Origin: Deltaproteobacteria bacterium HGW-Deltaproteobacteria-18
GTDB taxonomy: Bacteria; Desulfobacterota; Desulfovibrionia; Desulfovibrionales; Desulfomicrobiaceae
Assembly (NCBI GenBank): GCA_002841885.1
Contig: PHBE01000003.1
Location: forward strand, 124,001 to 188,000
Length of the DNA stretch: 64,000 bases
Direction of reading: 5' to 3'
Position numbers and translations under genes: made by a program. This document shows positions 21,725 to 59,617 of the stretch, one piece after another. Under the pieces are notes generated by a model. That model had not been told where the DNA came from. It did not search any database and saw only the letters and a list, made by a program, of their open reading frames with translations. Numbering within the stretch: position 1 is the first letter of the stretch; the number at the start of each line of letters is the position of its first letter.

Positions 21725-21782
21725 TTTCCGCCCACGGGGACGGCGGACGTGGCGGAAGAGGGGCGGGGGATGGAGGATGCAA

Positions 21783-21814
21783 CAAAAAAGCCGTCATCTC
21801 TGACGGCTTTTTTG
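21783..21814 (+). terminator. Bidirectional intrinsic terminator
   Basis: AAAAAAGCCGTCA pairs with TGACGGCTTTTTT around TCTC. The A and T runs on both sides allow termination of the plus-strand gene and of the minus-strand tRNA transcript. Confidence 0.85.
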
Positions 21815-21858
21815 TTTGTGGCATTCAAGTAAACTTAATGTTTTTTCATGCGTTTAAG

Positions 21859-56713: not shown

Positions 56714-57478
56714 TTAGGAATCGTCGGGCGAAACACGGGGGGATGAGGACGCCGCTGCACGCTCATTCAGGCAGGATCTGAGCATGGCGTAATGGTAGCC
56801 GATGAGGCTCCGGGCACGCAGGGGGTCGTTTTCGGCAATGGCGCGGGCGGTTTCGGCCCAGTTGGCTGCAGTGCGCTCGCGGTACACCGGGGTATCGTAC
56901 AGGGTGTAGTCATGGGAGCTGAACCCTCGTTGCAGCGCCTGCATGATCCACTCGAAAATAGGGTTGCCGGCCATGCCGGCCAGGGCCAGATTGAGGCCTC
57001 GGTCCAGATGACCGATCCTGTCTGCGTCGTGGTTTTTCTGCCTGAGGCAGGCCTCGAACTCTTCGGCCATGGACACCATGGCCTGTTTGGCTTCGGCCGA
57101 GCCTCGGGCAATGGCCAGGAGGGCCAGGGTCTGGTCCACGCTTTCGCGGAATTCGATGAGGGCCGAAGGCGCGACATCGTGCTGCTTGAGAAAGAGGGCC
57201 AGGGATTCCCCGATGCTGACCATGCCGACCTTGCACACGTACGCTCCGCCCTTGACGCCCTTGCGGATGTCCAGGAGCCCTTTTTGTTTGAGCGCCCGTA
57301 GAGCCTCGCGGATTGCGCCGCGTCCGGTGCCGAACTGCTGCTGCATCTCGCGTTCGCTGGGTAGACGCTCTTCGGGTGCCAGGCGCCCGGCCAGGATGGC
57401 AGCCTCGATCTGCAAGGCGACATCTTCACTGGCCCGTCCGGCTTTGGCCGGAAAGAAGAGGGGTTCGGAGGCTGTCAT
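56714..57478 (-). CDS. GntR/FadR-type regulator of the bet operon
   Basis: Transcription regulator of 254 aa. The N-terminal winged helix is LPSEREMQQQFGTGRGAIREALRALKQKGLLDIRKG (about 40-75). The C-terminal all-helical FCD domain spans about 85-235 (EFRESVDQTLALLAIARG; HLDRGLNLALAGMAGNPIFEWIM). The usual choline regulator BetI is a TetR protein, so this is a non-orthologous replacement. Gene order regulator-betA-betB-binding protein suggests autoregulation. The effector is presumably choline or a choline product. A palindromic site lies directly at its start codon. Confidence 0.87.
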   Translation of the reverse strand: MTASEPLFFPAKAGRASEDVALQIEAAILAGRLAPEERLPSEREMQQQFGTGRGAIREALRALKQKGLLDIRKGVKGGAYVCKVGMVSIGESLALFLKQHDVAPSALIEFRESVDQTLALLAIARGSAEAKQAMVSMAEEFEACLRQKNHDADRIGHLDRGLNLALAGMAGNPIFEWIMQALQRGFSSHDYTLYDTPVYRERTAANWAETARAIAENDPLRARSLIGYHYAMLRSCLNERAAASSSPRVSPDDS

Positions 57479-57561: not shown

Positions 57562-57616
57562 TTTTTGCCTAAATAGGACTGGGGTGTCAACCCGGTTGGC
57601 GGAAAAAGTGGGAAAA

Positions 57617-57636
57617 GGTCGGACCATTTGGTCCGC
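57617..57636. promoter_or_regulatory. FadR-type operator-like site 3 with palindrome
   Basis: GGTCGGACCA (57617-57626) is followed by the overlapping inverted repeat CGGACCA-TT-TGGTCCG (57620-57635, seven-base arms). The two overlap, giving a compound site about 140 bases upstream of the regulator start and just after the end of the four-helix-bundle pseudogene. Confidence 0.5.
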
Positions 57637-57644
57637 AGGAAGGC

Positions 57645-58212
57645 TCAGGAATTGTCTGCGGCGCGGCCCATGCGCCTGTCCAGGCGGGCGCGGGTCATGC
57701 GTTCGGAGAGGCCGCCTTCTTCGATGAGGGCTTTCTCAAGCTGCCTGATTTGCTGGTCAAGCAGGTAGTTGGTCTGGTGAATGAGGCAGATGAGGATGTT
57801 GGCTACGGTTTCGGGTGGGCGGGATTGAATATAGGTCCTATAGGTCTCATAGGACGTATTTTTTTGGCTGCCCAGTTTGCGGACGAACATGGCCTCTTTG
57901 CTGGACTTGTGCCAGAGCGTGTGTCCGCGCACTCTGAGGTAGTCGCGGTAATCTTCAAGCAGCTCTTCCATGCTGGCGCGGGCAACGATGATCAGCTTGA
58001 TTTCGCTTTTCCTGGATGTCGCCGAGGCCATGCAACCCTTGATGATGTTCTGCTTGCCAGACCGCACCGTGGACCATCTGGTCCACGGTGCGGTCGCGTC
58101 TGTGCATGAAGCGGTCGCATAAACACACCGTGCCGTCATAGACTATGACGGCCTTGCGGTAGGAAAGGAGTTCTTCGTAGGCGCCGTGTTTGGGGATGAA
58201 GTGCTGCGTCAT
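57645..58212 (-). pseudogene. Frameshifted four-helix-bundle protein with suffix domain
   Basis: Two minus-strand frames together make one protein. The first (from ATG 58212) reads MTQHFIPKHGAYEELLSYRK... to DRTVDQMVH; the second continues RSGKQNIIKG, EIKLIIVARASMEELLEDYRDYLR, and the C-terminal suffix YETYRTYIQSRPPETVANILICLIHQTNYLLDQQIRQLE. This matches the 23S-IVS-like four-helix bundle (TIGR02436) with the suffix domain (TIGR04258). The frames join near 58068, so a one-base insertion or two-base deletion is implied. The join lies in a perfect 36-bp palindrome (58060-58095). The start codon sits in the loop of a GCTGCG/CGCAGC hairpin. It could be a sequencing error or genuine decay. Confidence 0.75.
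58060..58095. repeat. Perfect 36-bp palindrome in the four-helix-bundle gene
   Basis: GACCGCACCGTGGACCA (58060-58076) is the exact reverse complement of 58079-58095, with the two-base centre TC. In the minus-strand frame it encodes DRTVDQMVH and contains the frameshift point. Confidence 0.9.
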
Positions 58213-58220
58213 TGCGCAGC
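58203..58220 (-). promoter_or_regulatory. Hairpin around the pseudogene start codon
   Basis: GCTGCG (58203-58208) pairs with CGCAGC (58215-58220), leaving the ATG (58212-58210) in the six-base loop. It would sequester the start and lacks a Shine-Dalgarno. Confidence 0.5.
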
Positions 58221-58231
58221 GTTTTTACTAT

Positions 58232-58263
58232 AGGTCCTATAGGTCGTCGGACCTATAGGACCT
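58232..58263. repeat. 14-bp-arm inverted repeat between glnA and the pseudogene
   Basis: AGGTCCTATAGGTC (58232-58245) and GACCTATAGGACCT (58250-58263) form a perfect stem with a GTCG loop. On the plus strand seven T follow after one G, so it resembles a terminator in that direction, opposite to both flanking genes. The same 14-mer recurs at 57833-57846 inside the pseudogene. Confidence 0.75.
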
Positions 58264-58270
58264 GTTTTTT

Positions 58271-59617
58271 TCACAGTCTGGGTAGGTACTTTTCCAGCTC
58301 GTAATTCGTCACTTGCGAGCGATACTGGTCCCATTCCACACGTTTGTTGGCCAGGAATTTGGTGAAGATGTGGTCGCCCAGGGCCTCGCGGATCAAGGCG
58401 CTGTTTTCCATGGCTTCGAGGGCTGTCTCCAGGCTGCCCGGGAGGCTTTCGATCCCGCGATCCCGGCGTTGCCCGGTGGTCATGATGTAGATGTCCTCTT
58501 CAACGGGTTCGGGCAGGGTGTAATTTTCCTCGATGCCCTTGAGGCCGGCGGCGAGCATGCAGGCAAAGGTCAGGTAGGGGTTGCAGGCCGGGTCCGGTGA
58601 ACGCAGCTCCACGCGGGTGGCGGCCTCCTTGCCGGGCTTGTACATGGGCACGCGGACCAGGGTGGAGCGGTTGCGTCGCGCCCAGGCGATATTGGTCGGG
58701 GCTTCGAAGCCGGGCACCAGGCGCTTGTAGGAGTTGACCCACTGGTTGGTGATGGCCGTGAATTCCCTGCAGTGCTTGAGCAGCCCCGCAATGTAGGCCT
58801 TGGCCTCGCGGCTCAGGTGATGGTCGCCGTCGGCGTCGTAGAAGAGATTGCGGCCGTTCTTGAACAGGGACTGATGCACATGCATGCCGCTGCCGTTTTC
58901 ACCGTACAGGGGCTTGGGCATGAACGTCGCGTAGCAGCCGTTCTGGCGTGCGATCTCCTTGACCACCACGCGGTAGGTGATGGCCGTGTCCGCCATCTTC
59001 AGGGCATCGGCGTAACGCAGGGCCAGTTCATGCTGGCTGGGCGCAACTTCGTGATGTCCGTATTCCACGGGAATACCCATGGAGCGCAGGCACGAGATGA
59101 TCTCGCGGCGGATGTCCCCGGCCAGGTCCAGGGGCGGGGCGTCGAAATAGCCGCCCGCGTCAAGGGGCTTTGGAGACGACGAGCTCTCGAACAGAAAAAA
59201 TTCCAGTTCAGGGCCGACATAAAAGGAATAGCCCTTGCTCGCTGCGGCCTGCAGGTTCCGTTTGAGGCAATGGCGGCTGTCCCCGGCAAAGGGGGTGCCG
59301 TTTGGCTCCAGGATGTCGCAGAACATGCGCGCGATGGGAGCTGCGGTCTGCCGCCAGGTGACCAGCTGGAAGGTGGCCGGGTCCGGGATGGCGATCATGT
59401 CGCTTTCTTCAATTCTGCAAAATCCTTCCAGAGACGATCCGTCGAACCCCATACCCTCCTCGAAGGCCGCCTCAAGTTCGCCGGGCAGGACCTGAAAGCT
59501 TTTCAGGGTTCCAAGCACATCCACGAACCAGAACTGGACCAGCTCGATCTTGTGTTCGCGCACGGCTTTGACGACATCGTCGGAATTCTTGCAGTTGAAG
59601 ATGGGAAATTCGGGCAT
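58271..59617 (-). CDS. glnA: Glutamine synthetase type I
   Basis: Enzyme of 448 aa making glutamine from glutamate, ammonia and ATP. Segments include VQFWFVDVLGTLKSF, EEGMGFDGSSLEGF, YVGPELEFFLFE (metal Glu), HHEVAPSQHE, NGSGMHVHQSL, and RNRSTLVRVP. At about 450 residues it is of the shorter GSI-alpha size. The adenylylation-type Tyr region of GSI-beta is not obvious. GGAGGAACACCC precedes the ATG. No sigma54 promoter could be found in the upstream 300 bases. Confidence 0.94.
   Translation of the reverse strand: MPEFPIFNCKNSDDVVKAVREHKIELVQFWFVDVLGTLKSFQVLPGELEAAFEEGMGFDGSSLEGFCRIEESDMIAIPDPATFQLVTWRQTAAPIARMFCDILEPNGTPFAGDSRHCLKRNLQAAASKGYSFYVGPELEFFLFESSSSPKPLDAGGYFDAPPLDLAGDIRREIISCLRSMGIPVEYGHHEVAPSQHELALRYADALKMADTAITYRVVVKEIARQNGCYATFMPKPLYGENGSGMHVHQSLFKNGRNLFYDADGDHHLSREAKAYIAGLLKHCREFTAITNQWVNSYKRLVPGFEAPTNIAWARRNRSTLVRVPMYKPGKEAATRVELRSPDPACNPYLTFACMLAAGLKGIEENYTLPEPVEEDIYIMTTGQRRDRGIESLPGSLETALEAMENSALIREALGDHIFTKFLANKRVEWDQYRSQVTNYELEKYLPRL

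Follow-up and report, generated by a model that had tools for sequence, protein, structure and literature searches.

A perfect palindrome at the frame break of a four-helix-bundle gene: a probable case of quasipalindrome correction in a bacterial coding sequence

The broken gene and its family

The window, by which we mean the whole stretch of 64,000 nucleotides that was analysed, carries on its minus strand a gene for a four-helix-bundle protein whose reading frame breaks inside a palindrome. The features of the locus are collected in Table 1. One open reading frame (58212..57955) reads MTQHFIPKHG...DRTVDQMV-HG, and the other (58139..57645) carries ...VRSGKQNI... through to its stop. A first-pass annotation made from the sequence had described two gene halves in different frames that meet at the palindrome, and the open reading frames agree with that description. 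The gene lies between a glnA-like gene and the gene for a GntR-type regulator, and it is present in a single copy in the genome (3.99 Mb in 37 contigs).

Table 1. Coordinates of the genes and palindrome parts at the locus, as positions in the window.
Feature	Position	Strand	Basis
Frame-broken four-helix-bundle gene	57645..58212	-	Open reading frames, profile search, intact 193-codon orthologues
Upstream frame, 85 aa; family-like residues to the junction, then out of frame to the stop	57955..58212	-	Open reading frame
Open downstream half, in the other frame; carries the TIGR04258 match and corresponds by homology to orthologue residues 51-189	57645..58064	-	
Left arm of palindrome in gene sense (putative donor/template), GACCGCACCGTGGACCA	58079..58095	-	Sequence and orthologue comparison
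Centre of palindrome, 2 nt	58077..58078	none	
Right arm of palindrome in gene sense (putative recipient), TGGTCCACGGTGCGGTC	58060..58076	-	Sequence and orthologue comparison
glnA-like gene, beside the broken gene	58271-59617	-	Named from its own sequence
GntR-type regulator gene, other neighbour of the broken gene	56714-57478	-	Named from its own sequence

The gene had been assigned earlier to a TIGR02436/TIGR04258-like family, and its intact orthologue bears this out by scoring above both cut-offs (85.8 bits for TIGR04258, cut-off 40; 30.4 bits for TIGR02436, cut-off 24). These two NCBIfam models describe four-helix-bundle proteins related to PF05635 (23S_rRNA_IVP), and for PF05635 itself the orthologue scores 27.2, under the gathering score of 33.8. 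The window copy differs from the proteins of the family in being split and in matching TIGR04258 alone, at 77.2 bits in the downstream open reading frame (cut-off 40), while neither of its two open reading frames gives a match to TIGR02436. Judged by orthology, the window gene is a broken member of TIGR02436 and not an intact one. No solved structure was matched by sequence, and a literature search for TIGR02436 turned up no papers. A viral source of the gene was considered and rejected, as no relative of it was found in viral contigs.

The gene is intact, as a 193-codon frame, at the same place in four genomes of the same genus, L003, L004, L005 and L006 (L028, labelled Desulfomicrobium sp., is the same contig as L006). 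In each of them the gene follows closely on the end of the glnA-like gene, and the region downstream resembles that of the window as well. The downstream half has matches in 9 of the 16 genus genomes, the window's own being counted. The closest orthologue is that of L003, with 89.7% DNA identity across the gene. All four orthologues read DRTVDQMVQAARSGK, and the junction is read straight through in 100 of the 104 fetched loci with a family match, a number that includes a few duplicates in which the same gene was fetched twice; the remaining four loci match the C-terminal part only. A short inverted repeat, GCTGCG...CGCAGC (58195-58218), has the start codon of the broken gene in its loop; L004, L005 and L006 have this repeat too.

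The palindrome and the changes that made it perfect

The palindrome, GACCGCACCGTGGACCATCTGGTCCACGGTGCGGTC, occupies 58060-58095 and has 17-nt arms, 100% complementary, around a 2-nt centre, so that the perfect 17+2+17 structure of the first-pass annotation is confirmed at its exact position. Among perfect palindromes in the 64 kb whose spacer does not exceed 6, it has the longest arms. The runner-up (21781-21816) has 16-nt arms and the look of a terminator. Third-order Markov simulations of the window (n = 8) gave a longest arm of 14, compared with the real 17. On the strength of these simulations, the arm-length scan and the enumeration described below, a chance origin of the 36-bp palindrome was rejected. 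The palindrome is absent from the other 347 of the 348 genomes of the order that were searched, with up to 3 mismatches allowed.

The left arm, GACCGCACCGTGGACC, is identical in the window and in all four orthologues. In gene sense, the window has GGTCCA--CGGTGCGGTC and its relatives mostly have GGTCCAGGCGGCGCGGTC; in a longer view, GACCGCACCGTGGACCAGATGGTCCA--CGGTGCGGTCTGG in the window stands against GACCGCACCGTGGACCAGATGGTCCAGGCGGCGCGGTCGGG in the majority of relatives. The right arm of the window, between 58070 and 58069, lacks two bases of the orthologues; at 58066 it has T (gene sense) where all four orthologues have C. The two-base loss and the C>T both turn the right arm into the exact reverse complement of the left arm, and the uninterrupted arm, which measures 4-7 nt in the orthologues, reaches 17 nt in the window. 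Read in the old frame, the C>T is A50V; 99 of 100 homologues have Ala there. Just outside the arm there is a window-only G>T at 58059 (TCG>TCT). The frameshift had initially been put down to a net two-base loss or a one-base gain; the loss stands, joined by one C>T, and the gain can be dropped. It had also been proposed to search for a homologue whose frame is intact and whose right arm is imperfect and longer by two bases; the four syntenic orthologues are of just this kind. A relative carrying the perfect palindrome with an open frame, the case named in advance as speaking against template switching, was looked for and none was seen.

Each orthologue is predicted to fold into an imperfect hairpin with exactly one 2-nt bulge in its stem and with a mismatch at the changed C or adjoining it. 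The predicted folding energies are about -12 to -16 kcal/mol for the orthologues versus -22.3 kcal/mol for the window. These orthologue folds are only modestly stronger than those of synonymous recodings (as-low fractions of 0.16, 0.008, 0.07 and 0.02), so the ancestral repeat was not exceptional. A hotspot at the palindrome site common to the whole family was rejected, since most homologues are predicted to fold more weakly (median -7.8 kcal/mol) and no homologue spanning the site is broken there.

We also enumerated every 2-nt deletion combined with every substitution in the central 48 nt of the majority orthologue sequence. The 17-nt arm, that is, the palindrome, appears in 2 of the 5106 outcomes, and all the others have arms of at most 11. 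Enumeration from L004 alone gives the same result. Enumeration from L003, L005 or L006 singly gives no 17-nt arm, because one or two arm positions in each of them are unlike the majority. As a stand-in for the ancestor, the majority sequence is the better choice, because the window shares GGTCC with L004, L005 and L006 and the GCGG stretch with L003 and L004.

Probable template switching and its rivals

Quasipalindrome correction is, to our knowledge, mostly known from reporter genes and eukaryotic comparisons. We think it quite probable that the palindrome is the product of one such template-switch mutation in coding sequence. The ancestor would have had an imperfect inverted repeat made from the codons for DRTVDQMVQAARS, with stems of 6, 3 and 6 bp, a 4-nt loop, a 2-nt bulge and a single mismatch. 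While the gene-sense strand was being made, its growing 3' end, ...TGGTCCA, would have paired over seven bases with the newly copied left arm, TGGACCA, and would then have been extended on that arm as template, adding CGGTG... The return to the true template would have been via GCGGTC, which is present on both templates. The two bases of the bulge and the mismatch (C>T) would thereby have been removed together, leaving a perfect repeat and a shifted downstream frame. An intramolecular route of this sort would fit without extra assumptions. Template switching had been suggested from the first reading of the sequence, and the unchanged left arm together with the imperfect right arm in the four orthologues supports it. 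For a single event, we have the combinatorial argument of the enumeration only; no intermediate was seen among the genomes compared. The G>T at 58059 is unexplained by copying of the left arm and counts against the switch account, as do the modest strength of the orthologue folds and the outcome of the enumeration from L003, L005 or L006 singly.

Read as template switching, the feature is a natural instance of an already known mutation mechanism. In E. coli lacZ reporters, a 4-bp frameshift is removed in reversion by intramolecular template switching (PMC7202029). The QP5 and QP6 reporters of that study share with the present case the passage from an imperfect to a perfect repeat and the removal of bulge-type extra bases. 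They differ in that the frame of an engineered reporter was restored under selection and the event was measured, whereas here the frame of a natural gene was destroyed and the event is deduced by comparison. In yeast, homogenisation of arms has been described in natural coding genes (PMC8604942). The Saccharomyces cerevisiae work likewise concerns a natural, multi-nucleotide, arm-matching change in a coding inverted repeat, examined by phylogenetic comparison, but it reports amino-acid replacements, while the present change is bacterial and shifts the frame by a 2-nt deletion. For RNA genes, template switching has been put forward as a means of creating and maintaining perfect stems (PMC8794818). 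The present locus would provide a clean natural example from bacteria, where comparison with relatives reveals both the donor and the recipient arm, the bulge and mismatch, and the cost in the form of a lost frame. A further lesson is that a gene interrupted within a palindrome is not necessarily the result of a sequencing error or of two separate mutations.

If the break is real, the gene is most likely a young pseudogene by now. The main rival to template switching in the cell is an artefact of sequencing, amplification or assembly, in which either a polymerase changed template at the hairpin during library preparation or the consensus is in error there. Sequencing error had been the leading alternative in the first-pass annotation, and it keeps that place, ranked below template switching; we regard an artefact as unlikely. 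A branch codon model, as an artefact would have it, shows no relaxation on the window branch. Over the whole gene, omega is 0.093 on that branch versus 0.095 elsewhere, with no significant difference, and downstream of the break it is 0.118 versus 0.093. The gene is also free of a second disabling lesion, as expected of one that is truly intact. The raw counts of substitutions after the break (7 synonymous, 9 non-synonymous) are striking, but, the codon model giving no significant difference, relaxed selection was rejected as proof of a pseudogene. With an upper 95% bound on omega of about 0.19, our arithmetic leaves at most about one tenth of the branch unconstrained.

Two observations speak against an artefact. 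The window lineage has four changes, F31L, E59K, L82M and F163L, at near-invariant residues (at least 97% conserved in 94 homologues), E59 being Glu in 100 of 100 homologues. Changes at such residues make up 4 of the 8 amino-acid replacements on the window branch versus 1 of 19 elsewhere in the tree (Fisher p 0.017, for a comparison that was chosen after looking and that leaves A50V out of the 8), and they suggest a loss of constraint. Furthermore, in about 50 kb aligned to the nearest relative, the broken gene is the only clear frame-split gene found, and therefore the assembly is not indel-prone; the other split hits overlap the broken gene or a neighbour on the opposite strand, or are apparently spurious antisense frames. 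The evidence is compatible with a recent, real inactivation and does not prove one.

We consider it very improbable that a 2-nt deletion and a C>T transition arose as separate, ordinary mutations and perfected the repeat by chance. In favour of this account, C>T changes are common, and the ancestral repeat was short of perfection by these two features only. Against it, only 2 of the 5106 such combinations give the palindrome, and the C>T would need to be either a rare Ala-to-Val replacement at a near-invariant residue while the gene was intact or, once the frame had broken, a coincidental hit. The least probable account is a palindrome under selection, serving as an operator, as a terminator-like hairpin or as a programmed +1 frameshift by which the full protein is still made. 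In its favour, the downstream frame was under strong purifying selection over most of the branch (omega = 1 is rejected by about 9 log units), and further palindromes lie just upstream. Against it, the recency of the break explains this constraint, neither the orthologues nor the other genomes searched in the order have the palindrome, there is no T run after it, and inspection showed no recognised slippery site.

Other repeats around the gene

The upstream palindromes just mentioned are two. The first is an inverted repeat inside the broken gene (58132-58152), GCCGTCATAGACTATGACGGC, with 10-nt arms that are perfect in the window; the repeat of L003, L004 and L006 is off by one mismatch, and that of L005 by more. 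The window reads ATA (gene sense) where the orthologues read ATT, and this T>A, which is synonymous, perfected the repeat on the window lineage. The second (58232-58263), between the glnA-like gene and the broken gene, is a palindrome of TATAGG repeats with 14-nt arms. In L004 it is longer and perfect, with 16-nt arms and a paired G/C change; the other orthologues show small departures, so that the hairpin keeps most of its self-complementarity among relatives, and the window loop differs by a clustered change. Taking these two together with 58060-58095, it is conceivable, and in our estimation doubtful, that the 5' part of the locus is a natural hotspot of template switching. If it were, repeated correction of arms would maintain the hairpins and eventually destroy the gene.

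The TATAGG-type repeat, a unit of 9 bases, occurs both inside the gene (57829-57857, coding SYETYRTY) and just upstream of it (58228-58263). Across all fetched homologues, other phyla included, the motif reaches 1.675 per kb in the 200 bases that precede the gene and 0.061 per kb in the other flanks, a difference of about 27-fold. A literature search found no paper on this repeat. In L033, there is a long tandem array of 9-base units upstream of the gene.

Downstream of the broken gene, at 57604-57640, lies a palindrome, GGACCATTTGGTCC, that is similar in three orthologues and looks like GGACCATCTGGTCC, the core of the in-gene palindrome. It stands ahead of the gene for the GntR-type regulator; it may act as an operator or as a terminator. 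A different short repeat, TCCCATNNN / ATGGGANNN, forms inverted repeats around and inside the gene start in L007 and L011, and short inverted repeats of the same kind lie upstream of the gene in L057 and L073.
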